Shown piece by piece: positions 594-55,597 of a DNA stretch of 64,000 nt (the first letter of the stretch is position 1; each line of letters starts with the position of its first letter). The stretch covers positions 19,604,056 through 19,668,055 of the forward strand of contig NC_133108.1 of assembly GCF_022965805.1 (NCBI RefSeq), given 5' to 3'. The stretch comes from Primulina eburnea. Its lineage: Eukaryota > Streptophyta > Magnoliopsida > Lamiales > Gesneriaceae. The notes under the pieces were generated by a model. It ran no database searches and had not been told where the DNA came from. It worked only from the letters and a program-made list of their open reading frames with translations. Both the position numbers and the translations under genes were made by a program.

Positions 594-891
594 ACCGCAC
601 CTGCAGTCAAAGAAGGACCGCCCCCGCGGTCAAGATTAATGAAATTGTGAAGAGGAGGCCGAAGCCTCACCGCACCCGCGGTGTTAGCAGGGACCGCACC
701 CGCGGGTGCGGTACGGTGCAGTACCGCACCCGCGGTCTCGACATGTACCGCACCCACGGTCGTGCAATTGCAAGATGGATAAGATTGTCGACGCATGAGC
801 GCACCCGCGGTCTTACACCTACCGCACCCGCGGTACGACGTGCTTTGTAAAGAATGCGCCACCTCTTGACATGCATGCAATGATATATATA
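594..891 (+). promoter_or_regulatory. GC-rich motif array (ACCGCACCCGCGGT type) with TATA box, 5' LTR of A
   Basis: About eight exact or degenerate copies of ACCGCACCCGCGGT lie between 594 and 834. Variants include AGCGC at the left arm and altered centres. TATATATA follows at 884-891, 50 bp after the last copy. Each full copy has inverted 5-bp arms (ACCGC/GCGGT) around ACCC and contains CCGCGG. The position implies the LTR core promoter, with the array as an upstream element (inference). The 3' LTR carries the same arrangement at 14837-15123. Confidence 0.7.
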
Positions 892-1671
892 GGTGGTAAT
901 CCATTCGAAATTCATTCAGAAAAGTGAAGAAAAGGGTCTGAAGAAGAAAGGAGAAAATCGTTACGCCTTTTGCGAGAAATCCGTCCGTCTGATTTTAAAT
1001 CCGACTTCGATATCGAGTTCCTAGCAACGTAGGCTACAGCTGGACGTAAGTTTTACTACGTTTTGACATGCTTTGAAATTATGATATTGTCAGAATTGAA
1101 TGGAACTCATATATGTTGTTCTTGACACATTAGACATCAGAGAATCGAAGTCAGATTAAGAAACGGACTGATCATGGAATTGTTATGATTTTCGGAGTAG
1201 TTTTGGACTCGAGTTGATATCAGAATTGAGTTGTTATTGAGTATGAGATATTAGAGTTAATATCTGATTGATATGGTATTGTTGGGTATATTGATATTAT
1301 ACCGTTATGCCATCGATAGTGAAGTAGGTTAAGTATTGAGCAGAACAGATTTGATTCGAGTGGTGTATTGATATTATACTCCTCGATATTGTTCTTGTCA
1401 GATCGATATTGACAGGTTTTGAGTTCGAGACTTCGACAGAGTCAGAGTATCAGAAAAGAAAGGTATAAATTAATGTTGTGTTGGGATTGCACGACTCGAG
1501 GAAGGTTTGACTCGAGTTTCCCTAAATCACATACTTTCATTTATTGCATTGATATTTGCAATTGATGAGACTTATAATTGTAGTCTATTGATTTATATCA
1601 ATTATATGATAAGATTGATATTGGTAGTCTATTGATTTATAGCTACTGCATGTGATGACTGCTGATTCGCC

Positions 1672-1885
1672 AGTCATCTACTGATTTGCGTAGATTTGAG
1701 TCATAGGCTGATTCGCCTAGTCACCGGCTGATTCGTCTGGTTATAGACTGATTCGTCTATTTATTGGCTGATTCGCCTAATTATAGCTGATTCGCTTAAT
1801 CACAGGCTGATTCGTCTGGTTATTGGCTGATTCGCCTAATTCTTGACTGATTCGTCAATCCTGCGGCTGATTCGCCCAGACACTG
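1672..1885 (+). repeat. About 20-bp tandem repeat with core CTGATTCG in LTR A
   Basis: About ten degenerate units of about 20 bp share the core GGCTGATTCGCC or close variants (ACTGATTCGTC and so on). Many units are short imperfect palindromes. The 3' LTR copy (about 15890-16145) has about 30 extra bases near its start, so the array changes length between sister LTRs. Confidence 0.8.
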
Positions 1886-2501
1886 GATAAGTATTATATC
1901 GATGCCGTTTAGGGATTGATTCATTCCTATCGACTGAGATTCGGTATAATTACTATTATTCAGACTTCGGGATCCCTAGGATAGAGTTGAGTCGAGTCTG
2001 AGACGACGCGTTGTTTGAGTCGAGTCTGAGTCTGAGTATGATTCAGTGTTTGATATTGATTTATGTTTCTGATTTGAGACATGTTATGAATATTCGTTAT
2101 TATGCTTTTATATATGGTTTTATATATGATCGCATGTATACATTGTTTATACTGGGATTTATTCTCACCGGAGTTATCCGGCTGTTGTCTTGTTTTGTAT
2201 GTGTGCATGACAACAGGTGGGGCTTGATCAGGGTCAAGAAGAGGATGAGAGAAGATTAGATAGCGTGGAGATCCGGGCTTCGAAGCAACATAGGATTCAG
2301 CACTGATATGTAGTTGAACCTAGTTGAATTCTTGTAGATAACACAAGATTTGTATGTTCATGTTTAATATGTAATTTGACTAAATTACATTACGTTTCCG
2401 CTTTGTATTTTAAAAAAAAAATTTAGACCCTGTTTTATAATTGATTAATTAGTCCCAATGATGATTAAGATAATGATTAGCGTCCGGGTCCCCACAACAG
2501 G

Positions 2502-2513
2502 TGGTATCAGAGC
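2502..2513 (+). other. Primer-binding site of element A (initiator tRNA-Met)
   Basis: TGGTATCAGAGC lies six bases after the 5' LTR end. The untranslated leader runs from 2514 to the gag start at 2780 and shows no other feature. Confidence 0.92.
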
Positions 2514-5714: not shown

Positions 5715-7613
5715 TGTAATGCCCTAGATTGAATATGAATAGACAGAAATTGAGAAATGTAATGCCTGAGATTATTGTAGATAGTTAAATACGAATCGCA
5801 AGAACAGACGGGGCGAAACAATGCGATAAAATATGAAATTTTATCTATGCAAGACCGCACCCGCGGTCTGGCAAGCACCGCACCCGCGGTGCAATGGGCA
5901 GAAAGTTGGTAGAATTCCCGTACCCACACCGCACCCGCGGTAGAATTAGACCGCACCCGCGGTACTAAGACCGCACCCGCGGTATTTACCTGACCGCACC
6001 CGCGGTCATCACTTGTGAAAAATAAAAGTTATGTCGAAGCCATAGCGCACCCGCGCTACTAGAGTTACCGCACCCCCGGTGATGCCTCCGAGAAATCCAC
6101 TCTTGTTCTTAACTTGACACATGGCAGGGGTATAAATATAACTCAAACATGAGTCATTCCACCCATTTCAGATACGGGAAACAAGGGAAAACTCAGAAGA
6201 AGAAGAAAGGTTCCTTGCTTATGAAAATTGATCTTGTGCAAGATTTAGCCATCCAAATTATAATCCGAGTTGAGATTCTTGTTCCTTGCATCGACGGCTA
6301 CAAGGTAATGTAAGTTTTGTGTAGTTCTAACATGTCTCGAATCATAGATGTTGGAGAAATAGTAATATGTTAGTTATATGGGATTCTTGGCATAGTGAGC
6401 ATCGTATATTCACTATCGGGTTGAATATCGGATGTCATAGGCAATTGTTACGATTTTCCAGCATATATTGGCATGAGATTATGCAGAGTGTGTGATCGTG
6501 TCATAGATATTATGATGATTATGAGTTGAGAATTGCACAATGTTGATATATGATGAGATTTGGATAGACCGGTATTGAGAAATCATGTCGTTATGCCGTC
6601 CGACTGTACCAAGATCACGTATAGAATTAGATAGGTGTTGAATTGAGTTGGGAATTGATATTGTATGTATCTACATTTCCATTTCAGATTCGTATTGTCA
6701 ACCGTGACGGCAACTGTGCGACGAAAGGTATAGTACATGTTTTGTTTGGGGACCTGCGACTCAAATGAGATCACATTTGAGTTTCCCAACCAAAATCACA
6801 TACTTGTTTTATTGTTTATATCTAGATATGATTATGATTGTTTATAGATTTGTTTATAGAACTTGTATACAAATCTTGCTATGCTTTGTTTACAGATCAT
6901 GTGGCATTGCATTAGAATGATTATGCTTGTTTACAGATTGTGTATTCATGCATTAAGATAGGACAGTCTGGAGATCAGGCAGACTACTAGACGTTCGGCG
7001 ATATCACAGCTTAGGGGAAGATCACCGCCCCTATTGTAGACGCGGATACAGATCAGGCCGAAGTCTAGGAATAAGACGGACAACACCTCGATTGGGAGGG
7101 TAGGTGACAGACAGTGCCGTCTTATTCGCAACGGGATCCCTAGAGTTCTAGTCGAGTCGTGTCTAGACATGATTAGACGCGCATTGCATGATTATATATG
7201 AATGACATTCATATTAGCATGTTTCATGTTTTAGATTGTTTTAATGCATGTATACATGTTTATACTGGGATTTGTTCTCACCGGTTTTCCGGCTGTTGTT
7301 ATGTCTGTATGTGTGCATAACAACAGGTGGGGCAGGATCTGGGTCGAGACAGAGATGATCGTGTTAGCGTGGAGATCACGGGCATAGCAGATGGACCAGT
7401 AGTTGTCTTTTATTATGTACTGTATTTTAATACTGGTTAGTTGAGGACATACAGAATAAGACATGTATTGTGTTTGTTTGTTGTAAATTTAATAAAGAAC
7501 TTATGCTTGTTTAATTACATGTGTTTTTATGTAAAAAGCGAAAATTTGACCCACATTTTAGAATAACGATCCATTTAATCCCAAGAAAAAGAATTAGAGC
7601 CCGGGTCCCCACA
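5715..7613 (+). repeat. 5' LTR of element B (1899 bp)
   Basis: It begins TGTAATGCCC and ends TCCCCACA. U3 carries eight copies of the GC-rich motif (5854-6080), then TATAAATA (6131-6138). Short open frames on both strands recur in the 3' LTR with no recognisable product. Confidence 0.95.
5854..6138 (+). promoter_or_regulatory. GC-rich motif array plus TATAAATA box, 5' LTR of B
   Basis: Eight copies of ACCGCACCCGCGGT or near variants lie at 5854-6080; the seventh reads AGCGCACCCGCGCT. TATAAATA follows 51 bp after the last copy. The spacing equals that in A, although the sequences between and around the motifs differ. The same array is at 12639-12865 in the 3' LTR, with TATAAATA at 12916-12923. 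Confidence 0.75.
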
Positions 7614-7618
7614 ACAGG

Positions 7619-7864: not shown

Positions 7865-10800
7865 ATGCCTCCTCGAAGAGCAGCAGTGCCTCTACGACCC
7901 ACAGCACCAGAACAGGGGAGCACATCCGGAGATCCTATGGATGTTACGGCGACCCCTATGGAGACGTTGCTGAAGCGATTCCAATCCTTTCGACCTCCCA
8001 CATTAAAAGGTACCGAGAATGCCATCGAGTGCGAAAGTTGGCTTGAGGACATTGAAATGTTATTCGACTCTTTGGAGTACAGTGACGAGAAGAGAATAAA
8101 GCTAATTGGCCATCAATTGCAAGATATAGCCAAGAATTGTTGGTTGAACATTAGGAGAGCTTTAGAGCAACGGGGTACCGAGATTACTTGGAAGGTATTC
8201 AAGACGGAGTTCTATCTGCGTTTCTTTCCTGTATCCTACCGTAAAGATAAAGGTGCTGAATTTGCCAATTTGAGGCAAGGGACTTTGAACATTGAAGAGT
8301 ATGTTGCCAAATTCTCTTCCTTGCTTCGTTTTGCACCCCATGTTTCAGGTAGTGACGAGGCGGTGGCGGACCAATTCATAAATGGCTTAAATCCAGACAT
8401 CTTTACGTTGGTAAACACGGGAAGACCTAATAACTTTGCAGATGCATTGAATCGGGCCAAAGGAGCAGAAGCAGGATTGATAAGACAGCGGAGTGCTCCA
8501 TATGTTGCTCCTGTGCCAAGACCACCACAACCTTCAGTGCAATCTCCTCCTCCTAGATTTGAAAGCGGCGGTAGTAGCAGTGGCAGAAAGGAACAGCTGA
8601 AGGCGAAGGGGAAACAGTTTAAAAGACCTGGGAGCAGCTCTTCAAGCTCCAGTGGATCAAGACAGACTGGTTTTGATCAGAGTACCAGGTATTCAGGTGT
8701 TTATTGTAGTTCCTGTGGAGGAAAACATGCGACTGAACAGTGCTAGGGAGTTACAGGCCGATGCAACATTTGTAGGCAACCGGGGCATTTTGCCAAAGTC
8801 TGCCCACAGAGGAGTGTACAGCCAGCCCAGAGTGGACGAGCATCCGGGCCAGTACCTCAGTTTGAGCGGCAGGCATCATCAGTTCACTCTTTCCAGCCTC
8901 CACCAGCACCGACTCAACCCAGAGCTCGTGGTAGTCAGACAGTGAGTCAACCTCCGAGGCAACAGTCTCAAGTGTTTGCATTGACAGAAGAGCAAGCACA
9001 AGATGCACCAGATGATGTTATAGCAGGTAACTGCTCTCTTTATGGTTATCCTGCTTATATCTTGATAGATACAGGTGCATCGCATACATTCATTTCAGAG
9101 CGATTTGCATTGTTGCATTCATTGCCTGTTGAGTCTTTGTTAGAGGTTGTATCCATTAATTCTCCGTTGGGAAGTGGATTGATATCTGTAACTACGGTTA
9201 AACATTGCATTCTACAGTTTGAGGGGCATGAGATTGACCTAGATTGTATAGTATTGGGTCTAGCTGATTTTGATTGTATAGTCGGTATTGACATGCTAAC
9301 AAAGTACAGAGCTACCGTGGATTGTTTCCACAAGATTGTCAGATTCAGACCCGAGATGACAGACGAGTGGAAATTCTACGGGAAGGGTTCCAGATCTCGG
9401 ATTCCCTTGATTTCGGCTCTTACTATGAACAGATTGTTACAAAAAGGAGCAGATGGTTTCTTTATTTATGCTGTAGATATGCAGAAGTCGAGCCCGGCGT
9501 TGGCAGATTTGCCAGTAGTACGGGAATTTCCAGATATTTTTCCAGATGAAATCCCAGGATTACCTCCGGTTCGAGAGGTAGATTTTAGCATTGATCTTGT
9601 ACCAAGTACCGTCCCTATTTCGAGAGCTCCGTATAGGATGGCACCCATCGAACTAAAAGAATTGAAAGCACAGTTAGAAGATCTTCTGGCCAAGGGATAT
9701 ATCAGACCTAGTGTATCTCCTTGGGGCGCTCCGGTGCTGTTTGTGCGAAAGAAAGACGGTTCGATGCGATTGTGTATAGACTACAGGCAACTGAACAAGG
9801 CAACGATCAAGAATAAATATCCTTTGCCTAGGATTGAAGATTTATTTGATCAGTTGCAGGGATCCTCTGTGTATTCGAAGATTGATTTGCGTTCTGGGTA
9901 CCATCAGCTCAGAGTTCGAGATATAGACATACCAAAGACAGCATTTCAAACCAGGTATGGACATTACGAATTTATTGTCATGCCTTTTGGTTTAACCAAT
10001 TCTCCTGCGGTATTTATGGGCTTGATGAACCAAGTGTTTCAGAAATATTTGGATGAATTTGTTATTGTTTTCATCGATGATATTTTGGTGTATTCGAAGA
10101 ACAGATATGAGCATGCAGAGCATCTCAGAATTGTTTTGCAGACGTTGAGAAACGAGCGACTGTATGCTAAATTGTCCAAGTGTGAGTTTTGGCTGTATCG
10201 AGTTGTATTCTTGGGGCATATCATTTCTGGTGATGGTATTTCTGTTGATCCGAGTAAAGTGGAAGCTGTGATCAATTGGCCAAGACCGACTTCGGTGCCA
10301 GAAATACGCAGTTTCATGGGTCTAGCAGGATACTATAGACGATTTATCCAAGACTTCTCCATTATTGCAAAGCTAATCACACAATTGACACAGAAGAATA
10401 TGCCATTTGTATGGTCAGAGGAGTGTGAGTCTAGCTTTCTAGAGTTGAAAAAGAGGCTGACCAGTGCTCCAGTGTTGACGATACCTTCAGGTACGGGCGA
10501 TTTCGTTGTATATTGCGATGCTTCTCATAGAGGTTTGGGATGTGTTCTTATGCAGCGAGGCCATGTGATCGCATACGCCTCGAGACAATTGAAGCCACAT
10601 GAAGTTCGATACCCCATTCATGATCTGGAATTGGCGGCTATCGTATTTGCATTAAAGATTTGGCGTAATTATCTCTATGGCGAGAAATTTGAGATCTTTT
10701 CCGATCACAAGAGCCTAAAGTACCTATTCTCTCAATCAGAATGGAACATGAGGCAGCGTAGATGGTTACACTTATTGAAAGATTTTGACTGCGAAATCAA

Positions 10801-12400
10801 ATACTATCCAAGAAAGTCAAACGCAGCAGCAGATGCCTTGAGTCGAAAGGTATGTTCTTTATCCTTGTCGACGATAGGTGTTACAGATATGATTGAAGAC
10901 TGTTGTTTGGCTGGATTAACATTTGATACAGATAGTAAGCCACTACGACTTGCTATGATTCGAGTTGAACCAGACTTGATAATGAGAATCAAAGAAGTAC
11001 AAAGAACAGATCAAAATGTGCAAAAATCAATTCAAATGGTCCAAGCAGGGCACATGTCAGAATATCAAGTACGTGATCATGTGCTGTACGTGAATAACCG
11101 TCTTGTTGTACCAGATGTTGCAGAGTTGAAATAGCAGATTCTGTCAGAGGCACATTGTATTCGGTTCAGTATTCATCCTGGTGGCAGGAAGATGTATAAT
11201 GACTTGAAGACACAATTCTGGTGGAAACATATGAAATCAGATATTGCAGAATTCGTGTCTAAGTGTTTGAACTGCCAACAGGTAAAAGCTGAAAGGAAGA
11301 AGCCCGGGGGGTTACTTCAGAGTTTATCTATTCCAGCATGGAAATGGGACCACATTTCCATGGATTTTGTGACGAAGTTACCTCGATCATCGAAAGGCTG
11401 TGACGCGATTTGGGTCATTATTGACAGATTGACCAAATCTGCTTGTTTCATTCCGTATAGAATGACGTATAGACAGGATCAGATGGCGGAGATTTATATT
11501 CGAGAGGTAGTCAGATTGCATGGAGTGCCGAAGTCTATCGTATCAGATCGTGATCCACGATTTACTTCTCACTTTTGGCACAGTTTACAGCAGGCCTTAG
11601 GTACGACTTTACACCTGAGTACTGCTTATCATCCTCAGACAGACGGACAGTCATAACGGACTATCCAGACTCTAGAGGATATGTTGAGAGCCGTGGTGCT
11701 AGATTTTGGCATTGGTTGGCAAGATTCTCTACCTCTTTGCGAATTTTCTTACAATAATAGCTATCAGACGAGTATCGAGATGGCACCGTTTGAAGCTTTG
11801 TATGGCAAGAAGTGCAGATCTCCGCTATATTGGGATGATATCTTAGATGTACCAGAACTTGGGCCAGATATGATTCGTGACATGACCGAGAAGGTGAAAC
11901 TCATTCAGAAGAGGATGAAGACAGCACAAGATCGACAAGCAAAGTATGCCAATATCAGACGTAGACCGTTAGTATTTGAAGCAGGAGATAGAGTATTCTT
12001 AAAGATTTCTCCATTCAGAGGCGTTGTTCGATTTGGCAAACGCGGGAAACTATCTCCTCGATACATTGGTCCTTACGAGATTCTTGATAAGATTGGCGAT
12101 CGAGCTTATCGACTTGCACTTCCTCCTTCTCTATCCGGAATACATGACGTGTTTCATGTATCAATGTTACGAAGATATATGCCAGATGTTTCTCATGTCA
12201 TTCAACCTGACGAAGCTGAACTTGATCAGACTTTGAGCTATGTGGAACAACCGATACATATCCTTGATCGGAAAGAAAAGAAACTCAGAACGAAGAATAT
12301 TCCACTTGTGAAAGTTCAATGGAGTCGTCATGGCATCGAGGAAGCGACTTGGGAAACAGAGGCAGACATGAGGCAGAAACACCCCGAGTTATTTTTATGA
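7865..12400 (+). pseudogene. gag-pol: Gag-Pol polyprotein of element B, one frame with three nonsense codons
   Basis: A single frame of 1512 codons runs without indels. Order (approximate residues): Gag core 25-195; zinc knuckles 279-310; aspartic protease with DTGASHTF near 402; reverse transcriptase 600-790 with FIDD near 736; RNase H from about 880 (YCDAS); integrase HHCC zinc region 1095-1140; integrase core with Asp in DFVTK (about 1167) and SDRD (about 1229); C-terminal chromodomain-like tail ending MRQKHPELFL. The tail and overall order fit Tekay/Del chromoviruses. Three in-frame stops break it: TAG 8744-8746 between the zinc knuckles (A has Gln there), TAG 11132-11134 before the integrase zinc region, and TAA 11654-11656 at the D35E catalytic glutamate. 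The start ATG matches A's gag. Confidence 0.93.
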
Positions 12401-12499: not shown

Positions 12500-14398
12500 T
12501 GTAATGCCCTAGATTGAATATGAATAGACAGAAATTTAGAAATGTAATGCCTGAGATTATTGTAGATAGTTAAATACGAATCGCAAGAACAGACGGGGCG
12601 AAACGATGCGATAAAATATGAAATTTTATCTATGCAAAACCGCACCCGCGGTCTGGCAAGCACCGCACCCGCGGTGCAATGGGCAGAAAGTTGGTAGAAT
12701 TCCCGTAGCCACACCGCACCCGCGGTAGAATTAGACCGCACCCACGGTACTAAGACCGCACCCGCGGTATTTACCTGACCGCACCCGCGGTCATCACTTG
12801 TGAAAAATAAAAGTTCTGTCGAAGCCATAGCGCACCCGCGCTACTAGAGTTACCGCACCCGCGGTGATGCCTCCGAGAAATCCACTCTTGTTCTTAACTT
12901 GACACATGGCAGGGGTATAAATATAACTCAAACATGAGTCATTCCACCCATTTCAGATACGGGAAACAAGGGAAAACTCAGAAGAAGAAGAAAGGTTCCT
13001 TGCTTATGAAAATTGATGTTGTGCAAGATTTAGCCATCCAAATTATAATCCGAGTTGAGATTCTTGTTCCTTGCATCGACGGCTACAAGGTAATGTAAGT
13101 TTTGTGTAATTCTAACATGTCTCGAATCATAGATGTTGGAGAAATAGTAATATGTTAGTTATATGGGATTCTTGGCATAGTGAGCATCGTATATTCACTA
13201 TCGGGTTGAATATCGGATGTCATACGCAATTGTTACGATTTTCCAGCATATATTGGCATGAGATTATGCAAAGTGTGTGATCGTGTCATAGATATTATGA
13301 TGATTATGAGTTGAGAATTGTACAATGTTGATATATGATGAGATTTGGATAGACCGGTATTGAGAAATCATGTCGTTATGCCGTCCGACTGTTCCAAGAT
13401 CACGTATAGAATTAGATAGGTGTTGAATTGAGTTGGGAATTGATATTGTATGTATCTACATTTCCATTTCAGATTCATATTGTCAACCGTGACGGCAACT
13501 GTGCGACGAAAGGTATAGTACATGTTTTGTTTGGGGACCTGCGACTCAAATGAGATCACATTTGAGTTTCCCAACCAAAATCACATACTTGTTTTATTGT
13601 TTATATCTAGATATGATTATGATTGTTTATAGATTTGTTTATGGAACTTGTATACAAATCTTGCTATGCTTTGTTTACAGATCATGTGGCATTGCATTAG
13701 AATGATTATGCTTGTTTACAGATTGTGTATTCATGCATTAAGATAGGACAGTCTGGAGATCAGGTAGACTACTAGACGTTCGTCGATATCACAGCTTAGG
13801 GGAAGATCACCGCCCCTATTGTAGACGCGGATACAGATCAGGCCGAAGTCTAGGAATAAGACGGACAGCACCTCGATTGGGAGGGTAGGTGACAGACAGT
13901 GCCGTCTTATTCACAACGGGATCCCTAGAGTTCTAGTCGAGTCGTGTCTAGACATGATTAGACGCGCATTGCATGATTATATATGAATGACATTCATATT
14001 AGCATGTTTCATGTTTTAGATTGTTTTAATGCATGTATACATGTTTATACTGGGATTTGTTCTCACCGGTTTTCCGGCTGTTGTTGTGTCTGTATGTGTG
14101 CATAACAACAGGTGGGGCAGGATCTGGGTCGAGACAGAGATGATCGTGTTAGCGTGGAGATCACGGCCATAGCAGATGGACCAGTAGTTGTCTTTTATTA
14201 TGTACTGTATTTTAATACTGGTTAGTTGAGGACATACAGAATAAGACATGTATTGTGTTTGTATGTTGTAAATTTAATAAAGAACTTATGCTTGTTTAAT
14301 TACATGTGTTTTTATGTAAAAAGCGAAAATTTGACCCACATTTTAGAATAACGATCCATTTAATCCCAAGAAAAAGAATTAGAGCCCGGGTCCCCACA
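12500..14398 (+). repeat. 3' LTR of element B (1899 bp)
   Basis: Same length as the 5' LTR, no gaps, about 22 substitutions by eye. Several of these fall in motif copies: one copy is CACCCACGGT here, and one is repaired relative to the 5' copy. It ends at 14398, directly before the ATAAT duplication. Confidence 0.95.
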
Positions 14399-14697: not shown

Positions 14698-16476
14698 TGT
14701 AAGGCCCGAGATGTTATTACAGTAATTCAAGATTAATCTGAAAGGATTATAGACAGAACGGATTAGCTGTAGAAAAGTAATGCCCAAGATTTTAAGTTGA
14801 TAACATGAAATTTTGAAAGAGGGCATGCGAAGCAAGACCGCACCTGCAGTCAAAGAAGGACAGCCCCCGCGGTCAAGATTAATGAAATTGTGAAGAGGAG
14901 GCCGAAGCCTCACCGCACCCGCGGTGTTAGCAGGGACCGCACCCGCGGTGCAGTACCGCACCCGCGGTCTCGACATGTACCGCACCCGCGGTCGTGCAAT
15001 TGCAAGATGGATAAGATTGTCGACGCATGAGCGCACCCGCGGTCTTACACCTACCGCACCCGCGGTACGACGTGCTTTGCAAAGAATGCGCCACCTCTTG
15101 ACATGCATGCAATGATATATATAGGTGGTAATCCATTCGAAATTCATTCAGAAAAGTGAAGAAAAGGGTCTGAAGAAGAAAGGAGAAAATCCTTACGCCT
15201 TTTGCGAGAAATCCGTCCGTCTGATTTTGAATCCGACTTCGATATCGAGTTCCTAGCAACGTAGGCTACAACTGGACGTAAGTTTTAGTACGTTTTGACA
15301 TGCTTTGAAATTATGATATTGTCAGAATTGAATGGAACTCATATATGTTGTTCTTGACACATTAGACATCAGAGAATCGAAGTCAGATTAAGAAACGGAC
15401 TGATTATGGAATTGTTATGATTTTCGGAGTAGTTTTGGACTCGAGTTGATATCAGAATTGAGTTGTTATTGAGTATGAGATATTAGAGTTAATATCTGAT
15501 TGATATGGTATTGTTGGGTATATTGATATTATACCGTTATGCCATCGATAGTGAAGTAGGTTAAGTATTGAGCAGAACAGATTTGATTCGAGTGGTGTAT
15601 TGATATTATACTCCTCGATATTGTTCTTGTCAGATCGATATTGACAGGTTTTGAGTTCGAGACTTCGACAGAGTCAGAGTATCAGAAAGAAAGGTATAAA
15701 TTAATGTTGTGTTGGGATTGCACAACTCGAGGAAGGTTTGACTCGAGTTTCCCTAAATCACATACTTTCATTTATTGCATTGATATTTGCATTTGATGAG
15801 ACTTATGATTGTAGTCTATTGATTTATAGCAATTATATGATAAGATTGATATTTGTAGTCTATTGATTTATAGCTACTGCATGTGATGACTGCTGATTCG
15901 CCAGTCATCTACTGATTTGCGTAGATACTGAATGCATGTATTGATTACTGAGTCGTTGAGTCATAGGCTGATTCGCCTAGTCACCGGCTGATTCGTCTAG
16001 TTATAGACTGATTCGTCTATGTATTGGCTGATTCGCCTAATTATAGCTGATTCGCTTAATCACAGGCTGATTCGTCTGGTTATTGGCTGATTCGCCTAAT
16101 TCTTGACTGATTCGTCAATCCTGCTGCTGATTCACCCAGACACTCGATAAGTATTATATCGATGCCGTTTAGGGATTGATTCATTCCTATAGACTGAGAT
16201 TCGGTATAATTACTATTATTCAGACTTCAGGATCCCTAGGATAGAGTTGAGTCGAGTCTGAGACGACGCGTTGTTTGAGTCGAGTCTGAGTCTGAGTATG
16301 ATTCAGTGTTTGATATTGATTTATGTTTTTGATTTGAGACATGTTATGAATATTCGTTATTATGCTTTTATATATGGTTTTATATATGATCGCATGTATA
16401 CATTGTTTATACTGGGATTTATTCTCACCGGAGTTATCCGGCTGTTGTCTTGTTTTGTATGTGTGCATGACAACAG
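14698..16476 (+). repeat. 3' LTR of element A, first part (interrupted by copia element C)
   Basis: Colinear with 455-2215 of the 5' LTR. It carries its own motif array (14837-15066), TATATATA (15116-15123) and CTGATTCG repeats. It stops at 16476 with AACAG, the duplicated target of C. It continues at 25847. Confidence 0.94.
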
Positions 16477-23697: not shown

Positions 23698-23699
23698 CT

Positions 23700-31811: not shown

Positions 31812-32682
31812 CAATACATATACATCATGTGAGCACAAGGGATGAAATTCCACTTACAACCACTAGAAACCTTGAATCTAACTCCTTGGGTGAAATCCTA
31901 CAACAATAATCTACAAATAATACCATCGTCAACTCAATAATCAAGAACCCATGCCCATTAATCCATAAATCCAACAAATACAACAAACTCATATCATCTC
32001 TCTTCCAAAACCAATAAATAATACAACCAAAAGCTTACCTTAGCTTCTTAGAGCAACCAAGAACCTCGATCTCAACTCGAAAATCCAACTAGAAGCTTGA
32101 ATCAAAGATGGGAAGTGAAAGAAATGAGGGAAAACCCTTGTCTCCAAGAGAGAATTCGAAAATTGAGAGGAAAGAAATGGGGAAAAGTGAAGTCAACTCA
32201 CCCAAAAAGCACTTCAAATCTCGACCATACTACTACTGTTCATCACCGCGGGTGCGCTCCACCAAGCACCGTGGGTGCGCTGAGCTCACGGCCTCCAATC
32301 CAAAAATCCATGCTCGACGACCGCGGGTGCGGTCCTGAAATTACCGCGGGTGCGGTACTAACATCACCGCGGGTGCGGTGAAGCTACGGGAAAAACACCA
32401 AAATCCAACAATTAAGACCGCGGGTGCGGTCCTTACACTGAGCGCGGGTGCGGTCTGGTCACGGCCAAGACAAAATCTAAGGCAACTAAAATCGAACCGA
32501 AACGCTGAAACGACGCAACTACCAACAACTAAAAATATCAACCACACCTCAAGACAAAATAACCCACAATACTATGGCCCATAATCACAACTCTTAACAT
32601 CACAACTAAACTTAAACTTAATCAATAAATCTATAACATACGAAAAATTAAACCGTACCGTTCACCAGGCTCGGCTATTACA
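31812..32682 (-). repeat. Element Y: partial minus-strand LTR of the Z/H family, interrupted by Z
   Basis: Reverse complement of the first about 870 bp of an H-type LTR. The minus-strand start TGTAATAGCCGAGCC is at 32682, and it is closest to H at 41516-42400. It carries seven or so motif copies (32245-32454), again reading ACCGCACCCGCGGT in LTR sense. The rest of this LTR must lie left of the window because Z inserted into it. It borders D's 3' LTR at 32683. Confidence 0.88.
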
Positions 32683-33566
32683 CATATCATTGACATCACA
32701 ATATAATCAAAATCATATCTGAATCTGATCAATATCAATTTCATGATGTTTCGACAGTATAACAACACAATCTTGATATTCCATCAATCTCAACATCACA
32801 GATATCATACCAGAACTCATAATCAATACTGATATAACTCACAATCTCAATGATAACACAAATCTGATATCGAATCTCCGTCAATATCTTTTAAAAATCA
32901 TAACAATTGCATAAACAGTCTGTTCTTTAATCTGACTTCAATTCTACAATGTCTACGGTAGTAGAAACACCATATCTGAATCATATGCGATTCTAGCAAC
33001 ATCATATTTTCAAAACATCTCAAAACGTAATAAAACTTATGTCCTTGTGTAGCTCGAGTCAAGAGGAACTCAAAACTGAAGTCGGATTTGAATTCTGATG
33101 GACTAATCTTTCACAATCGCAAATCTAAAAGGCGTAAGGAAGTCTTCTCTCAACAGCTCGGCCCTTTTTCTTAAATTCTGAGGAATTACGTGTAATTCTT
33201 CTATATATGTATATGCATGCAATTCATAAAACGTGGCATCATTTTTCAAGCTACACGCATGACCGCGGGTGCGGTAGTGCAAGGAGCGCGGGTGCGCTAA
33301 TGCTTCGGCACCAATTCGATTTTCTAAAATCTTCGACCGCGGGTGCGCTACATACAAGACCGCGGGTGCGGTGTCACTACCGCGGGTGCGGTCCCTCTTG
33401 CACCGCGGGTGCGGTACTTTCCTGAGCGCGGGTGCGGTCTTGTCTCAAATAAAAACTCTTATTTTCTCATGTCTTTTCTACCCTCATTACATGTCATGCA
33501 TTCTCATATCTCTGGGTATCATATTAATGAAGGTTAACCATATCAACAAGAATCTCGGGCATTACA
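32683..33566 (-). repeat. 3' LTR of element D, 5' portion only
   Basis: Minus-strand start TGTAATGCCCGAG at 33566. Motif array at 33262-33438. It lacks a 51-bp stretch that the 5' LTR has between two motif copies (39474-39525 region), an exact motif-to-motif length change. A TATATA box lies beside the array, as in the 5' LTR. Confidence 0.9.
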
Positions 33567-37563: not shown

Positions 37564-39676
37564 TGTGGGGACCCGGACGCTGATCTTTTTCTTAATCTTC
37601 TTTGGGATTTAATTATCAATTAAGATAAAACAGGATCTAAAAATTTTTCTTTTAAAATGCGGAAGGCAATGGAATCAATGTATTATACAAATCAGTATAA
37701 TAATACAAATCTTGTACAACATGTTTCTAGATCAAATTAATCTAAGGTTTAACTACTAAATTCAAGTATTAAACCAGGTCTATAATAAGTCCGGAATCAC
37801 CATGCTAACTCGTCTTCTCTCATCATTTTCTTGACCCCGATCTTGTCCCACCTGTTATCATGCACACATACAAAACAAGACAACAGCCGGATACTCCGGT
37901 GAGAATAAATCTCAGTATAAATCATGGTAAACATGCATATACATAAAGTAAATCATGAAATATTCTATCATGAATATAATTCAAATCAATAGATTTCATA
38001 ATCTATGAAATTAAATCAAGATAAGCATGCAACTCGAATCAGTTAAACATGCTACTCAAATCATATCATAAGAACATGCTATCATGACTGAAAGCAATAA
38101 CAATGGGTTTCATAGTCTATGAAACCACATCCATAAATGCATGCAGTTCTAGTCAAATCATGTCTAGACTCGACTCAACTATAACTCTAGGTATCCCGGT
38201 GTGAATAAGACGTCACTGATCTATCACCTACCCTACCACTCGGGGTGACTGTACGTCTTATTCCTAGACTTCGGTCTGATTTGTATCCACATCTACAATA
38301 GGAGAATGATCTTCCCCTAAGTTGTGATATCACCGAACGTCTAGAAGTCTGACAGTTCCGTCAAGACTTTCCTACCTTATATGCAATGAATATCGATCTA
38401 TAAACAAAGCATGCTCATTTCAAAGGATATGAATATAACATCTATAAACACATCATAATCATATCATAAAATAAACAACCATAATTCTAGTATGTGATTT
38501 TGTTGAAAAACTCAAATGGGATCTTATTTGAGTTGTATCTTCCCGAATATCACATGAATTATACCTTTGTCTTCCAGGTCTAACGAAGACGAGGTCTGGT
38601 ATTCCAATCTGTCCATACATGATCTGGCAATGACAATATCGAATACACTGTATCAGTGAATAACTCAATATACAATCAGTTCTGATCAATACTCAAATCA
38701 GTACGTAATATGATCAATGTCTGAACAAGATACAATTCAATTCATATCATTGACATCACAATATAATCAAAATCATATCTGAATCTGATCAATATCAATT
38801 TCCGGATGTTTCGACAATATAACAACACAATCTTGATATTCCATCAATCTCAACATCACAGATATCATACCAGAACTCATAATTAATACTAATATAACTC
38901 ACAATCTCAATGATAACACAAATCTGATATCGAATCTCCGTCAATATCTTTTAAAAATCATAACAATTGCTTAAACAGTCTGTTCTTTAATCTGACTTCA
39001 ATTCTACAATGTCTACGGTAGTAGAAACACCATATCTGAATCATATTCGATTCTAGCAACATCATATTTTCAAAACATCTCAAAACGTAATAAAACTTAC
39101 GTCCTTGTGTAGCTCGAGTCAAGAGGAACTCAAAACTGAAGTCGGATTTGAATTCTGATGGACTAATCTTTCACAATCGCAAATCTAAAAGGCGTAAGGA
39201 AGTCTTCTCTCAACAGCTCGGCCCTTTTTCTGAAATTCTGAGGAATTACGTGTAATTCTTCTATATATGTATATGCATGCAATTCATAAAACGTGGCATC
39301 ATTTTTCAAGCTACACGCATGACCGCGGGTGCGGTAGTGCAAGGAGCGCGGGTGCGCTAATGCTTCGGCACCAATTCATTTTCTAAAATCTTCGACCGCG
39401 GGTGCGCTACATACAAGACCGCGGGTGCGGTGTCACTACTGCGGGTGCGGTCCCTCTTGCACCGCGGGTGCGGTATCGAAATATCAAAATTAGGTACCCT
39501 ACTGGACATTCACCGCGGGTGCGGTACTTTCCTGAGCGCGGGTGCGGTCTTGTCTCAAATAAAAACTCTTATTTTCTCATGTCTTTTCTACCCTCATTAC
39601 ATGTCACGCATTCTCATATCTCTGGGTATCATATTAATGTAGGTTAACCATATCAACAAGAATCTCGGGCATTACA
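37564..39676 (-). repeat. 5' LTR of element D (2113 bp) with motif array and TATA box
   Basis: TG...CA ends on the minus strand. About nine motif copies lie at 39322-39548, read ACCGCACCCGCGGT in LTR sense. A TATATA box at about 39262-39268 is 54 bp downstream. The 3' LTR is about 51 bp shorter within this array. No gene is seen. Confidence 0.92.
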
Positions 39677-41515: not shown

Positions 41516-43141
41516 TGTAATAGCCGAGCCTGGTGAACGGTACGGTTTAAGTTTTCGTATGTTATGGATTTATTGATTAAGTTTAAGTTTAGTTGTGATG
41601 TTAAGAGTTGTGATTATGGGCCATAGTATTGTTGGTTATTATTGTCTCGAGGTGTGGTTGTTATTGTTAGTTGATGGTAGTTGCATCGTTTCAGCGTTTC
41701 GATTCGATTTCAGTTGCATTATATTTTGTCTTGGGTGTGACTAGACCGCACCCGCGCTTATTGCAAGGACCGCACCCGCGGTCGTAATTCATGAATTTTA
41801 TTGGTTTTCTCGTGGATACACCGCACCCGCGGTAGAGTTGGCACCGCACCCTCGGTGATTGCAGGACTGCACCCGCGGTCGTCGATTTCAGAAAATTGGT
41901 GGTGTGCCATGAGCTTACTGCACCCGCGGTACAAGGATTAGCGCACCCGCGGTCACGCATTTCGGGTTACTCTTCGAGATTTTAAGTGGGTAGTTGGCTT
42001 CACTTTACTCATTTCCTTCTTCTCCTTTTCGACATTTCTCTCTAGAGGCTAGGGTTTTCTCATTTTCTTTCACTTCCTATCTTCGATTCAAGCTTTTAGT
42101 TGGTGATTGGAGTTGAGATTGAAGTTCTTCTTGGTTGCTAGGAAGCTAAGGTAAGCTTTTGGTTGTATTATTCTTGGTTTTGGAGGAGAGATGATATGGG
42201 TTTGTTGTATTTGTTGGATTTATGGATTAATTGGCATGGGTTCTTGATTATTGAGTTGATGATGGTGTTATTTGTGGATTATTGTTGTAGGATTTCACCC
42301 AAGGAGTTAGATTCAAGGTGTTCTTGTGGTTTGTAAGTGGAATTTCATCCTTTGTGCTCACATGATAATATATGTATGGTATTCATAAGGTTTTATTATG
42401 CTATTCCTTTCATTTGATCCTTGAGTATGTATTGATTTCATTGTTATGTATATTGGAGACAATTTAATGTCTCAATTATGAGAAGGGAATACAAAACAGA
42501 AAGAATATCAAAGTGTTTGATGAAATGTCCCAAAGAAAGAGTTTAAATGTTTTGTGGATTGATAGATACATAGTCAGAGATTGCATGCAATTAGTTGATC
42601 AACGACCATAGGACTTATATCCCTCAGAGTTGTCGATTTATATCGATGGGATACGAGCACCACAGACAGAGTTACTATTGATATCAATCCAACCAGAGTA
42701 AAGAGAAATACCATCTTATTGCTATGCTATTGCTATGATATTTATTTCAGAGTTGATGGTATTTATGTTTTAAAGCTATGATTTTCAGAGTATGATATGT
42801 TCATTGCTATGTAAGAGTTCCACTTGCTGAGTTTTATACTCATTTCAGTTATTTCATGTGATGCAGCTAAGAGCGACGGACTAGGACAGTGATTGTGGAC
42901 CGAGGTCATATGCATATAGAGTTGGAAGGAAGGAAGAAGATGTTATTTTTTCAACATTTTGGGACATGATCATAGGAATGATATGTATTTTTGTTGTTAT
43001 ATCATTTGAATGATCATGTATTTATTTTGGTTGCAAATATTTTGTAAATGATTTTATGTTATTAAATTGTAATCCTTCCATCCTTTAATTGAAAATTTTA
43101 AATTCCGCTGTATTTTAATTAAATTGGGTCGAGGTGTCACA
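41516..43141 (+). repeat. 5' LTR of element H (1626 bp) with motif array
   Basis: TGTAATAGCC start and GTGTCACA end. Seven motif copies lie at 41745-41953, including CACCCTCGGT and ACTGC variants. No strong TATA box follows. It is similar to Z's LTR in order. Confidence 0.92.
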
Positions 43142-49000: not shown

Positions 49001-50494
49001 ATCCACAATAGAAGCCAAAAACCCATCACATCCTCTAAACAACAACTTCTTAGCCTCAAGACACGAAATAAAAGGAAGGACCAGCGAAGTACCTGCACTT
49101 GCATGCATACCTTTCTTATTGCCATCATCTACAAATTTCACAGTCTTAGCAACGCAATCAATCACTGCACGATAGGTCGATAGCCAATCCATGCCAAGTA
49201 TAATATCAAACGCAACCATTGGGATAACAATCAAATCAGCATAAACCACTCGTTCATCGATTTGAACAGAGCACGCATACACAATAGATGTCGGGCACAA
49301 AACATCCCCCGAAGGCAAAACAACATTAAACTGGAGGGGAAGAACAGAAGGAACTATACCCGAAGATCTCAAAAATAGTTCAGACATAAAAGAATGAGTA
49401 GCACCTGTATCAATCAATGTCGTAGCTACTCTGCCTGAAATTAAAATAGTGCTAGAGATCACAGAATAATCATGGTTTATACCTTCCTTCGTCATGGTAA
49501 AGATGCGACCCTGCACCTTATCTTTACTCGCTCCTCTTAGACAATCTTTGGCAGTATGGCCTGCAGTGCCACAACGGTAACAAGTATGAGTACCAAATCT
49601 GCACTCTCCCCTATGATGTCGACTGCACTTGGGACACAAAGGCTTCTCGGGATCAAATGGAACTGCCGGTGGTTTTGGACTCGGCACTATCTTGCCTTTC
49701 CCTTTGAAACGATCCTTCCCTCTTGGACTTGAGCCTTGGCCTCTCTGAGCAATGGCCTGTTGTCTCGCTTGTCTTTCTCTGGCAATCTCTTTCTCATCCT
49801 GTTCGGCCAACAAAGCCTTAGCTACAATCTCCTTGAATGTCACAGCTTTGGACATATTGATGTCCATTCTGATCTCTGCTCGAAGGCCTCTAATGAAATG
49901 AGCACTCTTGTCTTTGTCGTTGGAAGCAATGTATGGGGCAAACAGACAGCCCTCCTCGAACTTCAGAATATACTCATCGACATTAATACCTCCTTGACGA
50001 AGCTCCAAGAACTCACTCACCTTCCTAGCTCGAAGTGCATCTGGGAAGTACTTGTCATAGAAAAGATCGATGAACTCTGACCACTTCAATGTCGGAACAT
50101 CAACACCCACCTTGGTAGCATTCCACCAAATGCGAGCAGCCTTGACCAACATGAACACTGCACAAGTGATTCTGTCTTTGTCTTCGTAGTTGATATGATC
50201 AAAAATCGCTTCAAGAGCTTTGATCCACTCTACAGCTACCAAAGGATCAATGCTACCTGCAAATTCAGGCGGATCCATCCTCTCGAAAGCAGTAAAGATC
50301 CCATCGGTTCCCACTGCCTGAGCCACTTGGCCTCTACCCTGCCCTCTACCTTGGCCTGTACCTTGCATACGGAGCAACTGCTGGATCTGCTCACTATGGA
50401 CCTTGGCTTGCTCTTTCAACAACTTGCCGAACTCATCGACAACTCTAGAGGAAGAACTATCCTCACCCTCTACGGCTTTTCTCTTAGGAGGCAT
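46072..50494 (-). pseudogene. gag-pol: Gag-Pol of minus-strand element M (near complete, frameshifted in integrase)
   Basis: An open 1140-codon frame, 50494-47072: Gag core; zinc knuckles near residues 285-318; protease DTGATHSF near 363; RT 560-760; RNase H with [10 protein letters not shown] near 845; integrase zinc region near 1060-1100; ending just after DFVTGLP. One extra C near 47095 shifts the frame. The rest (47046-46123) holds the integrase core with SDRDPRF and GQLERV and a chromodomain-like tail in which a Trp codon has become TGA. The original stop is at 46072-46074. The RT active site reads CIDE where Z has FIDD, so the second catalytic Asp is Glu and the enzyme is probably impaired. 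PBS and LTR L lie upstream, LTR K downstream. Confidence 0.92.
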
Positions 50495-50631: not shown

Positions 50632-52361
50632 TGTGACACCTCTGACCCATTTTACAAAATAACAGCGGAATTTAAAATTTTTCTTTAAAATGGAGGAAGG
50701 ATTCAAAATAAATTTCATATATATTCAAAAGTATACAAATGATCAATAAAATGATACAACAAAAAGCAAAATATCATTCTTGTGATCATGTCAAAATGCT
50801 AGCAAAATAACTTCTTCCTTCCATCTTTGGTATGCATATGACTCCGGCCCACAATCAACGTCCCAGCCCGTCTCTCTTATCTGCATCACATGAAATAACT
50901 GAAATGAATATAAAACTCAGCAAGTGGAACTCTTACATAGCAATGTACATATCATACTCTGTAAAACATGGCTTTAAAAACATTAAATACCATCAACTCT
51001 GAATCATGAATAACATAGCAATAATATAACAATAAGATGGTATTTCTCTTTTCTTTGTTGGATTGATATCTATATAGTATCTCTGTCTCTTTACCTATAT
51101 CCCATCGATATAAATCGATAACTCTGAGGGATATAAGCCTATGGTCGTTGATCAACTAATTGCATTCAATCTCTGACTATGTATCTATCAATCCATAAAT
51201 CATTTTTAAACTTTCTCTTTGGCATTTCATCAAACACTTTGAAGACTTTATTCTCTTGTATTCCCTTTTTACACAATTGAGACATTCAATTGCCTCTAAT
51301 ATACCAACAAGTATATCAATACATAATATGAATCAAATGGAAGGGAATAACATGTTAAAACCATTGAAACACAATACATATACTATCATGTGAGCACAAG
51401 AATGAGATTCCACTTACTACACTTGCAACCTCTTGATTCTAATCTCTTTGGTAGCAATCCTACAACAATAATCCATAAATAACACCATCAATAACCCAAT
51501 AATCTAACAACAATATCAATAAATCCAATACACCAACACAATCCACAAACCCAAGAACTCTCCCAACACCAAACCAAGAAATAACAAAACCAAAAGCTTA
51601 CCTTAGCTTCCTTGATCCCAAAATAACTTAGTTCCCTCAACAATAATCCACTAAGAGGCTTGAATCAAAGAAAGAAATTGAAAGGAAATGAGGAAACCCT
51701 AGCTCCAAGGAGAGAATTTCGAAAATGGGGAGAAAGAAATGAGAGAAATAAGACCAATTCTTCTATTTAAGCACTAAAAATCGCCAAAACACGCTTATAC
51801 TGTGCCCGGCGCTCGGGCGGTCAAAAATTACCGCTCGGGCGCCAATGATTCTGCCCAAAACCCAAATTTCCAGAAGCAGTGGCGCTCGGGCGGCCATATA
51901 TTACTGCTCGGGCGCCACTCTGCGCACTGATACGTTAAAGATCGCTCTAGAAACACCTCTTCCTTTCCGAGTTAGAAAAAGTTGTAAACTACAAAGTTTT
52001 AGCCCTATGTCGTATCTTGAGTCCCTCAAAATTTCAGATCTTTTGGAGGTCTGAGTAAAATGTTATGCCCATTCTCCCAACATGTGTCACTGGAGGAACG
52101 ACGAAACGCACGACACACTTCAGGGCTCTTTTGGCTTATCTTCCACAATGATTTGAACCAAACTCAAAATAAGAAAATTACACCTCTATGTCTTATTTAA
52201 TCGTAACACCGCTACAAAAGCACTACACATCATCTATAGTCAACCATACTATAAATCCTAAATCGAAACTCTTAACATACAAACTATACTTAAACTTGAC
52301 CAATCAGTCAATAAACTTATGAAAACTTAAACCGTACCGTACACCAGGCTTGGCTATTACA
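50632..52361 (-). repeat. LTR L (minus, Z/H family, 1730 bp) with variant motif array
   Basis: TGTAATAGCC start at 52361 and GTGTCACA end at 50632 on the minus strand. Internal M sequence lies on its left, and another family member's pol 3' end with PPT lies on its right, so it is shared by two internal regions. In place of ACCGCACCCGCGGT it has four GGCGCTCGGGCGGT-type units (51808-51916) at the matching position. A TTAAATAG box lies about 40 bp downstream on the minus strand. Confidence 0.9.
51808..51916 (-). promoter_or_regulatory. Variant GC-rich motif array in LTR L
   Basis: Four units: GGCGCTCGGGCGGT, ACCGCTCGGGCGCC, GGCGCTCGGGCGGC and ACTGCTCGGGCGCC, as written on the plus strand. They keep the arrangement of 5-bp GC-rich inverted arms around 4 bp but the centre is TCGG (CCGA in LTR sense) where other arrays have ACCC. 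A TATA-like TTAAATAG follows in LTR sense. Confidence 0.6.
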
Positions 52362-52401
52362 ATCTCCCCTCCTTAGAGGAATTTCGTCCCCGAAATTAAC
52401 G

Positions 52402-53437
52402 TCACTGAGCAAACAACTTGGGATACTTCTCTTTCATCTCATCCTCTGGTTCCCACGTGGCTTCTTCGATCAAATGATTCCTCCAAAGGAATTTAACAAT
52501 GCCGATCTCTTTGTTTCTCAACACTCTAACTTTGCGATCCAGAATCTGGACCGGAATCTCTTGGTACGTCAAATTCGGCGTCAAATCCAATGGCTCGTGA
52601 TGAAGAACATGGGAAGGATTCGCAATATACTTCCTGAGCATCGAAACATGAAAAACATTATGAACTCTGTCAAGATCTGGCGGTAGGGCTAACCTGTAAG
52701 CTCGATCACCAACTCTATCCAAGATCTCAAATGGGCCAATAAATCTCGGACTCAACTTTCCCTTCTTGCTAAATCTCATCACACCCTTAAGAGGTGCTAT
52801 CTTCAAGAACACATGGTCGCCAACCTCAAACTGCAACGGCCTACGACGCACATCAGCATAACTCTTCTGTCTCGACTGTTCTGTCTTCATCCTCTCTCGA
52901 ATAACAGCAACAACATCAGCTGTCTGTTGGACCAACTCGGGACCCAACATCTTCCTCTCACCAACCTCATCCCAATACAAGGGAGATCTACACTTCCGCC
53001 CATAAAGTGCTTCATACGGTGCCATGCCAATCGTCGCTTGGTAACTATTATTGTAAGTGAACTCAACTAGAGGCAATTTGGAATCCCAGCTACCTGAATA
53101 ATCAATAGTACAATCTCTGAGCATATCCTCTAAAATCTGAATAACTCTCTCTGATTGACCGTCGCTCTGGGGTGATATGCTGTACTAAATGCTAACCGTG
53201 AACCCATAGCTCTGTGCAAACTCTTCCAAAACTCTGAAGAAAATCTAGGGTCACGATCAGACACGATCGACACAGGAACACCATGAAGTCTAACAATCTC
53301 TGCTATGTACTCTTCGGCATACTGGTTCATGGAGTACGTCGTCTTGGCTGGAAGAAAATGCGCTGACTTGGTCAACCAATCAACAATAACCCAAATAGAG
53401 TTAAAACATTTCTGCGTCCTGGGGAAGACCAGTTCGG
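52402..53437 (-). pseudogene. pol: Integrase/chromodomain fragment of a second minus-strand Z-family element
   Basis: Minus-strand pieces 53375-53130 (SDRDPRF region) and 53124-52402 (C-terminal integrase and chromodomain-like tail, MKEKYPKLFAQ end), separated by a 1-nt loss in the DGQ segment near 53170 that shifts the frame. It retains the normal Trp codon that is TGA in M. The N-terminal side is cut at about 53437, where it meets an H LTR fragment. Confidence 0.88.
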
Positions 53438-53444
53438 GGCCTTA

Positions 53445-53604
53445 AAAATGATTTGTGGATTGATAGATACATAGTCAGAGATTGCATGCAATTAGTTGAT
53501 CAACGACCATAGGCTTATATCCCTCAGAGTTGTCGATTTATATCGATGGGATACGAGCACCACAGACAGAGTTACTATTGATATCAATCCAACCAGAGTA
53601 AAGA
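53445..53604 (+). repeat. 3' LTR of element H, first surviving part
   Basis: Matches H's 5' LTR from about 42545 onward, in plus orientation. It ends at AAAGA (53600-53604), the target duplication of solo LTR N. The LTR start and motif array are missing. Confidence 0.85.
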
Positions 53605-55597
53605 TGTAAGGCTCAAGATTATTAGTCTTCATTGACGAAATACTCGGAATATATGAGTATGCATGATATAGAGCTTGAGATTTGAATTATTAGTCTTCAT
53701 TAATATGATACTCAAAGATTTGAGACTGCATGACATGAAATTAGAGTTTGAGTACAAGATAAAAATGTGAAATTTATGAAGGCTAGGCCGAGACAAGACC
53801 GCACCTACGGTCTAGGAGACACCGCACCCGCGGTGAATGTCCAGTAGGGTGCCTAATTTTGACATTGCAAGACCGCACCCACGGTAAGAACAGACCGCAC
53901 CCGCGGTGTCAAGACCGCAACCGCGGTGCTGAGGAGACCGCACCCGCGGTCGTCACTTTTAAAAATTAAGAGTCATGCCGAAGCATGAGCGCACCCGCGG
54001 TCTAGATATGAGCGCACCCGCGGTGCTGCATGCGAGAAGTCCACCTTTGTTTATATGTTGACACATGGCCTGAGGTATAAATACTTAGTGCTGATTCATT
54101 CTTTCATCGTTTCAGAAGCTGAGAACCGAGATTTCTCTCAAGAATCCTTCAATTTCTTCAAGGCTTTGAAGTAAGGTAATTCATGATTTAACCATCCGAA
54201 TTGCATTTCGAGTTGAGATTCTTGTTTCTCTCATGGAGGGCTTTAAGAGGATGTAACTTGCATTCACTCCCTACATGATTTAAGATATGGAGATTGGGGG
54301 AAATTGTATTATGTTTATAGATGTGTGTTCTTGAGATTATAGACAACATATAAAGGTAAACAGATCGAGTATGGGATGTCATATGCGATTCTTATGAATT
54401 TCAGCATGTTAAGATTAGATGGTGCTGATTTATGGTGTTCTAGATTGATATTATGGTGGATTTTGAGTGATGATAATTGATTTCTGAAAGATGAGTTGAT
54501 CAGTATCGAAAGACTACGTTGTTATGCCATCGAATGATATTAAGATAGATTATTAATTAATAGATGTGTTGAATGGGATAGGAATTGATAGAATGTGTAT
54601 CGATGTATCTCTTTCAGATTTGATTGACAGACTTGATATCGACTTCGAGACTTCGATTGATTCCTACGACAAGAAAGGTATAAACCATGTTTGTTTGGGA
54701 AGCCACAACTCAAATAAGATATCATTTAAGTTTCCCAACCAAAATCACATACTAGCATTGTTGTATATATGGTAACGTGTTTATGACTTGTTTATAGAAT
54801 TATATCCAAATCTTGTAACATGATTATGCTTTGATTATAGAATTGTATTCAAGCATATAAGATCATTGTGATATTCAGATATGAATATGAGCATGCTTTG
54901 TTTACAGATTGATATTCATTGCATTTAAGATAGGAGAGTCGTTGATAGCTATTGTCACATATCTAGATGTTCGGTGTATCTCAGCTTAGGAGCAGCTCTG
55001 ACTCCTATTGCAGCCGTCGATACAGCTCAGACCGAAGTCTAGGAACAAGACGTACAGTCACCCTGAGTGGGAGCGTAGGTGACAGCCATTGACGTCTTAT
55101 TCACACCGGGATCCCTAGAGTCTAGTCGAGTCGAGTCCAGACATGGTTTGATTCACATTGCATTGTACGTTTATATGGATGTCATTCATTATATCATGTT
55201 TCATGTTTTAGATTGATTATATGCATGTATACATGTTTATACTGGGATTTGTTCTCACCGGAGTTTCCGGCTGTTGTTATGTTTGTATGTGTGCATAACA
55301 ACAGGTGGGGCAGGATCTGGGTCACGCAGAGGATGAGAGATGGACATAGCGTGGTGATCTCAGGCATAGCAGAAGAACTAGTAGTTGTACTTTTCATATG
55401 TATTGTATTTAATTACTAGTTGTTGAGTATGGAGGGAACAAGACATGTTTGTACCTTATGTTTTGTAAAATAAATAAAGACTTTATGCTTGTTCATACAA
55501 CATTAGAATAAATGTTGAAAAACAAAAATTTGACCCACTTTTTATATTAATGATCCATTTAATCCCAAATAAAAGAGTTAGAGCCCAGGTCCCCACA
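53605..55597 (+). repeat. Solo LTR N (1993 bp), Tekay-like family related to B, with motif array and TATA box
   Basis: Begins TGTAAGGCTC and ends GTCCCCACA. It is flanked by AAAGA (53600-53604, 55598-55602) with no PBS or internal sequence, so it is a solo LTR left by LTR-LTR recombination. Eight motif copies lie at 53798-54024, and TATAAATA (54076-54083) follows 52 bp after the last. The U5 side resembles B's LTR (TTATACTGGGATTTGTTCTCACC); the U3 side is largely its own. Confidence 0.93.

Follow-up and report, generated by a model that had tools for sequence, protein, structure and literature searches.

Why do long terminal repeats (LTRs) that do not align end to end carry the same array of a 14-bp near-palindrome? 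The question is raised by a 64,000-nucleotide stretch of the Primulina eburnea genome (contig NC_133108.1, positions 19,604,056 to 19,668,055, forward strand; hereafter the window), in which ten LTR copies hold arrays of the motif ACCGC-ACCC-GCGGT, referred to here by its central ACCC. The carriers are nested Ty3/gypsy elements. We found the motif to be one of several spellings of a broader dyad, CGC-N4-GCG, which occurs mostly in pairs 22-23 bp apart, and we consider it probable, judging from sequence comparison, that the arrays are a U3 enhancer of these LTRs, read by a dimeric host factor, in U3 blocks that turn over.

At two or fewer mismatches, the motif matched the window 76 times, compared with an average of 0.05 and a maximum of 1 in 100 shuffled sequences. 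The ten arrays listed in the preliminary description are therefore real, and their coordinates were right to within 1 bp (the array in Z starts at 30404). The arrays, together with two TATA-like boxes read in the sequence and one array of a different spelling, are located as follows.

594..834, plus strand: ACCC array of the 5' LTR of A, 8 units and one overlapping reversed unit; LTR 455-2499
884..891, plus strand: TATA-like box of LTR A, 49 bp below the array
5854..6080, plus strand: ACCC array of the 5' LTR of B, 8 units; LTR 5715-7616
6131..6140, plus strand: TATA-like box of LTR B, 50 bp below the array
12639..12865, plus strand: ACCC array of the 3' LTR of B, 8 units; LTR 12500-14401
14837..15066, plus strand: ACCC array of the 3' LTR of A, 8 units; LTR 14698-16476 and 25842-26128, with a nested element between
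30404..30632, plus strand: ACCC array of LTR Z (group II), 8 units; LTR 30203-31811
32245..32454, minus strand: ACCC array of LTR Y (group II, truncated), 7 units
33262..33438, minus strand: ACCC array of the second LTR of D (truncated), 7 units, one unit and its spacer missing
39322..39548, minus strand: ACCC array of LTR D, 8 units; LTR 39676 down to 37561
41745..41953, plus strand: ACCC array of LTR H (group II), 7 units; LTR about 41516 to 43141
51808..51916, minus strand: CCGA dyad array of LTR W (group II), 4 units spaced 22-51-22; LTR 52361 down to 50629
53798..54024, plus strand: ACCC array of LTR N, apparently a solo LTR, 8 units; LTR about 53605-55604

Together the ten ACCC arrays contain 77 units, 39 of them perfect, with a mean of 0.68 mismatches per unit. 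Motif positions 4, 5, 8 and 11 are invariant, and the two halves are equally well kept (CGCAC on the left in 70 of 77 units, CCGCG on the right in 67). The arrays share a layout of eight slots at about 23-51-23-20-23-51-23 bp, all of which are occupied in seven arrays; H and Y are without one central unit, and the second LTR of D, at 33 kb, is without one unit and its spacer. Seven to nine units per array had been proposed. Seven to eight stands, and the ninth, in A, is a reversed unit on the minus strand (699-712) that overlaps a plus-strand unit and sits in an 11-bp insertion; it is the sole unit in the ten arrays that does not follow the direction of its LTR. The arrays qualify as CpG islands, with a GC content of 0.57-0.63 and an observed-to-expected CpG ratio of 1.19-1.37, and nine of the ten are longer than 200 bp. 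The TATA-like boxes of A and B, 49-50 bp below the array ends, have similar counterparts in other group I LTRs. Between array and TATA, several group I LTRs have a GCCAC and a CATGC block in common, in A (about 850-891) and at compared loci designated L012, L013, L017, L026 and L027; we take the CATGCA in these LTRs to resemble RY sites. The window had no Rfam match at gathering scores, a protein search with an antisense open reading frame (ORF) over an array returned 692 candidates, none at E ≤ 10, and none of the viral contigs searched contained two exact ACCC units at a distance of 5-12 bp.

To what extent are the carriers related? The preliminary description spoke of several families, and this has to be revised, as the seven lettered families fall into two related groups: I (A, B, D and N), with LTRs starting TGTAA[TG]GC, and II (Z, H and Y, joined by the ACCC-free LTR W, 52361 down to 50629, minus strand), with LTRs starting TGTAATAGCC. 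A profile of the four group I LTRs matched three group II LTRs across the array only (E 1.6e-34 to 2.8e-39). Once the array was masked, nothing in these LTRs scored better than E 5.6, or 0.004 in blastn. The proposal of a promoter-upstream element common to LTR groups without end-to-end alignment is thus borne out, as is that of a constant motif among differing spacers. In 21 comparisons between the groups, of LTR copies that are not independent, the motif differed at 4-12% of positions and the spacers at 36-55%, compared with 45-53% for shuffled spacers. Some 37-bp spacers are weakly similar at the same slot in the two groups, as descent would leave them.

This conservation does not extend to copies that have landed. 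Within the insertions A, B and D (A and D in part), the LTRs of a pair differed at 5 of 318 motif positions, 2 of 315 spacer positions and 51 of 3,897 other positions, with 18 motif, 45 spacer and 35 other gapped columns left out. On these small counts, the motif is unprotected once inserted and is lost about as fast as other LTR sequence. Conservation between families combined with ordinary decay after insertion indicates selection on the motif in replicating lineages. The two groups also share 15 derived bases at the same slot (permuted mean 6.9, p 0.0006), so the array, with its order of units, descended or was transferred in one piece. It follows that the fixed orientation is not an independent sign of function. 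The single orientation claimed earlier was found in 17 of 18 ACCC clusters and reflects descent; it fails in the reversed unit of A, and among 14 clusters with other spellings that are asymmetric, 4 (from three elements) are of mixed orientation.

LTR W opened the view to a wider element, since in place of an ACCC array it has four units of the form RSCGC-CCGA-GC[GA]SY (51808-51916) at 22-51-22 spacing. In a 200-kb sample made up of 20 stretches of 10 kb at places that we picked, CGC-N4-GCG occurred 83 times, compared with 7.3 times in shuffled sequence, whereas N3 and N5 versions occurred 8 and 12 times. With strands merged, the centres of these 83 dyads were CCGA (15), CCTA (15), ACCC (12), CCGG (8), CCCA (6), TCGA (5), ATAT (5) and others (17). 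The central four bases vary between LTR families (ACCC, YCGR, CCTA, CCCA, ATAT) and the geometry is constant. A partner at 22-23 bp was present for 58 of the 83 sampled dyads and for 61 of the first 100 genome-wide SCGC-N4-GCGS sites listed. Across the 812-Mb genome, in counts that may be lower bounds, SCGC-N4-GCGS had 234,738 sites (289 per Mb), whereas the reversed pattern had 16,625 and the N5 version 8,579. Two dyads with 2-40 bp between them were found 152,849 times (4,520 reversed), the YCGR class 53,636 times (65 reversed) and the exact 14-mer 52,056 times on both strands (0 reversed). Among 63 distinct pairs from the window and the compared loci, a set enriched by the choice of loci, the inner half was GCGGT in 83 of 126 halves, in the arrangement GCGGT...ACCGC, and the outer halves varied (ACCGC 44, GGCGC 24, CGCGC 24 and CTCGC 20 of 126).

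Some dyads lie outside LTR arrays, and single CCGC-CTAG-GCGG sites recur; at L035:399-970 two of these stand in opposite sense 558 bp apart, a distance that recurs elsewhere on contig C1. Arrays at L027 and L033 have ATAT, ATGT or ACAT centres with pairing at 22-23 bp, and at L020:6380-8700 inverted copies about 2 kb apart face each other, each with dyads of the same geometry.

Element B encodes gag, protease, reverse transcriptase, RNase H and integrase pieces in Ty3/gypsy order:

7865..12400, plus strand: gag-pol ORFs of element B, three or four open pieces, the last with a weak chromodomain match

The Pfam Chromo match in B has an E value of 9e-5 and 22.8 bits, under the cut-off of 25.1. 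The Gag of B has 174 relatives, and among the matches listed (120) all are from Primulina, Henckelia or Dorcoceras, which we take to be Gesneriaceae. The Pol of B is 55% identical over 721 residues to that of a group II-like element in L023, which in turn is 90% identical to the group II ORF at 47072-50494. At seven places TGGTATCAGAGC, a tRNA-Met type primer site and presumably of the initiator-Met type, follows LTR ends. Such primer usage has been described in chromoviruses (in the relevant part of PMC6317226); the name Tekay for these elements is our guess from LTR length and primer-binding site.

How could related elements come to differ in their arrays? The Pol of L012 is 93% identical to that of B, yet L012 has CCGG/CCGA pairs. 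Over the first 500 bp of the LTR pairs B/L012, A/L026, D/L017 and H/L023, identity was 20-59% per 100-bp bin, gaps counting as differences, except for 83% in the first bin of H/L023, whereas the downstream bins of the four pairs were mostly above 60%. In A, B and D the alignable part begins about 85-105 bp below the TATA-like box. A near-random U3 block joined to a related downstream part in all four pairs makes the earlier idea of an element traded among families plausible; as to the route, template exchange near R would give this pattern, and so would fast divergence of U3. The units of an array can also change spelling together: the LTRs of W and L023 are alignable along their full length (81-83%), but each of the four centres is CCGA in the one and CCTA in the other, and the outer halves are different too. 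Arrays may extend further still. The element in L021, with LTRs 99.8% identical and a 5-bp AAAAG target duplication, contains dyad pairs and has a primer site that we take to be of the tRNA-Asp type; a search of papers for this site gave no result. Its coding sequence offers one gag-like ORF (Pfam E 0.11, below the cut-off), with two relatives, in P. eburnea and Henckelia, and its lineage is judged tentatively from primer-site type. On this one example, the arrays probably reach beyond chromoviruses.

We infer protein binding to DNA from the fixed half-site distance, the two-turn pairing, the place above the TATA in group I and the keeping of the sites in replicating copies. In the enhancer reading that we favour, a host DNA-binding protein, as a dimer or a dimer of dimers, would read the CGC and GCG halves of dyads paired at 22-23 bp (about two helical turns), the inner halves being GCGGT and ACCGC, and once bound would raise LTR transcription. 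Replicating elements would have to keep their sites, and landed copies would lose them. U3 blocks would turn over between lineages, perhaps via template exchange near R, and spellings within an array would change together, perhaps by copying between repeated pairs. Several observations weigh against this reading. Below the arrays of group II we saw no canonical TATA; N6 dyads in the 200-kb sample were also above shuffles (25 versus 7.6); the decay counts from A, B and D are small; the variation of spelling between families is not demanded by one simple half-site reader; and a motif search of papers yielded no plant factor for CGC-N4-GCG. In addition, all 14 arrays that were folded as RNA were more stable than their shuffles (z −0.9 to −10.9; 13 of the 14 at −1.99 or below).

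This folding is also what would be expected if the arrays acted as RNA, with U3 at the 3' end of the transcript and the palindromic pairs forming hairpins that serve the element or are cut into small RNAs by the host. One YCGR pair indeed folds as a near-complete hairpin, and palindrome-rich LTR regions of Sireviruses are small-RNA hotspots in the sections of PMC10760457 and PMC5311732 that treat them. We nevertheless regard an RNA role as unlikely. A hairpin needs neither a fixed N4 nor a fixed pair spacing, and the centres of ACCC pairs cannot pair, yet their spelling is kept. An excess of pairing between centres in the unstratified set (105 of 144 cells, shuffled 82.5, 0 of 1,000 shuffles as high) was set aside as family structure because it vanished within the YCGR class. 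There, cross-arm pairing was at the chance level (61 of 76 cells, compared with 60.8 in shuffles), which argues against hairpins being what is selected. Equally improbable in our estimation is that the arrays have no function, having arisen by tandem duplication and conversion between repeats and being common since their carriers are common. Pairs do resemble duplication units (a 65-66 bp period in L012), and units change together, as between W and L023. Conversion does not explain why, in ACCC arrays, 14-bp units are kept between spacers that have become near random, or why variants specific to a slot endure. After insertion the units decay no differently from ordinary LTR sequence, and the same geometry appears with other spellings and in an element with a different primer-site type.

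The other alternatives concern the identity of the reader. That the units are CGCG boxes bound by CAMTA factors, as had been suggested, fits the vCGCGb found in 67 of 77 window units. Among the 83 sampled dyads, in contrast, CGCG lies inside 16, comprising 12 of 12 ACCC dyads and 0 of 54 with the six other main spellings, and the left half, which is without CGCG, is as conserved as the right. CAMTA factors thus cannot be the general reader, and we give this version very little credence. VANC proteins of VANDAL transposons are anti-silencing factors, and a similar element-encoded protein could bind the arrays; the spellings, variable between families and fairly uniform per array, are as expected of a matched site and protein. 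The ORFs of at least 150 amino acids in B, however, are an ordinary gag-pol set, and B and L012 differ in spelling despite Pol proteins that are 93% identical, so a protein of this kind seems to us highly improbable as well.

The closest known system is the palindromic LTR motifs of Sireviruses (RM boxes), whose regulatory function is likewise only proposed in the passages concerned of Bousios et al. 2010 (PMC2829016). As depicted there, they are palindromic units in at least eight copies per LTR (seven to eight in the ten ACCC arrays, four in W), the cluster is a CpG island, and spelling varies between elements while being constant within one. They sit shortly above the TATA; here TATA-like boxes lie 49-50 bp below the arrays of A and B, and none is evident in group II. 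By eye, 5 of the 13 tabulated motifs (Osr10, Osr8, Vitis, Barbara and Inga) contain CGGT...ACCG and in this resemble the inner halves of the present dyads. There are differences in carrier, core and geometry: Sireviruses are Ty1/copia elements of the SIRE lineage, whereas B has Ty3/gypsy order; those five motifs have a CGG-CCG core with 0-3 bases between, whereas CGC-N4-GCG is in none of the 13; and a shared N4 geometry or 22-23 bp pairing is not described in those passages (PMC2829016). Del (Tekay) LTRs, in the portions of Cruz et al. 2014 on their islands (PMC4029996), resemble the present ones in having a CpG-rich stretch in the 5' part of a chromovirus LTR. Their islands are of variable length and sequence, and the Del LTRs of five eudicots had none, unlike the conserved dyad array here, in a eudicot. 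Maize Ty3 elements are generally without a clear peak of palindromic LTR structures in the pertinent section of PMC10760457. The Tnt1 superfamily is similar in that U3 varies between subfamilies while other parts are conserved, and its BII boxes bind host factors; it belongs to the Ty1/copia elements of Solanaceae, and the sections on U3 (PMC1838419, PMC3316501) describe no dyad geometry shared across families. Within the library that was searched, the exact motif strings gave only papers unrelated by title and the start of the abstract.

Other repeats surround the carriers. Nested in the 3' LTR of A is an element (16477-25841) with 98.9% identical 2.15-kb LTRs, without an ACCC array, and ORFs that look Ty1/copia-like by eye. 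Both LTRs of A hold tandem repeats of about 20 and 40 bp (CTGATTCGCC...) well below the promoter (1703-1856 and 15948-16116). A 364-bp unit holding an integrase-like fragment is tandemly repeated (about 5 copies, 93-94% matches) at 39676-41516 and 56041-57796, and similar repeats adjoin L012. At 45431-45978, a W-like LTR is split by a 250-bp unit in 1.9 copies, with its end inverted at the far side.

We also entertain, as a possibility that we hold to be rather doubtful, a lock-and-key code in which the half-sites and the 22-23 bp pairing are kept and the four central bases form a family-specific address. This address could be read by diversified members of one host protein family, or be set against silencing factors, and families could compete for or escape such factors by changing all the units of an array together. 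If true, the code would span chromoviruses to at least one element with a primer site of non-chromovirus type. For the enhancer reading, the broader meaning is that palindromic LTR enhancers are apparently not confined to Sireviruses and that their geometry can, it seems, stay fixed under changes of spelling. The host factors that drive the amplification of LTR elements are mostly unknown, and a rigid, easily assayed site points to one. Retrotransposons have spread about 235,000 possible binding sites through one plant genome.

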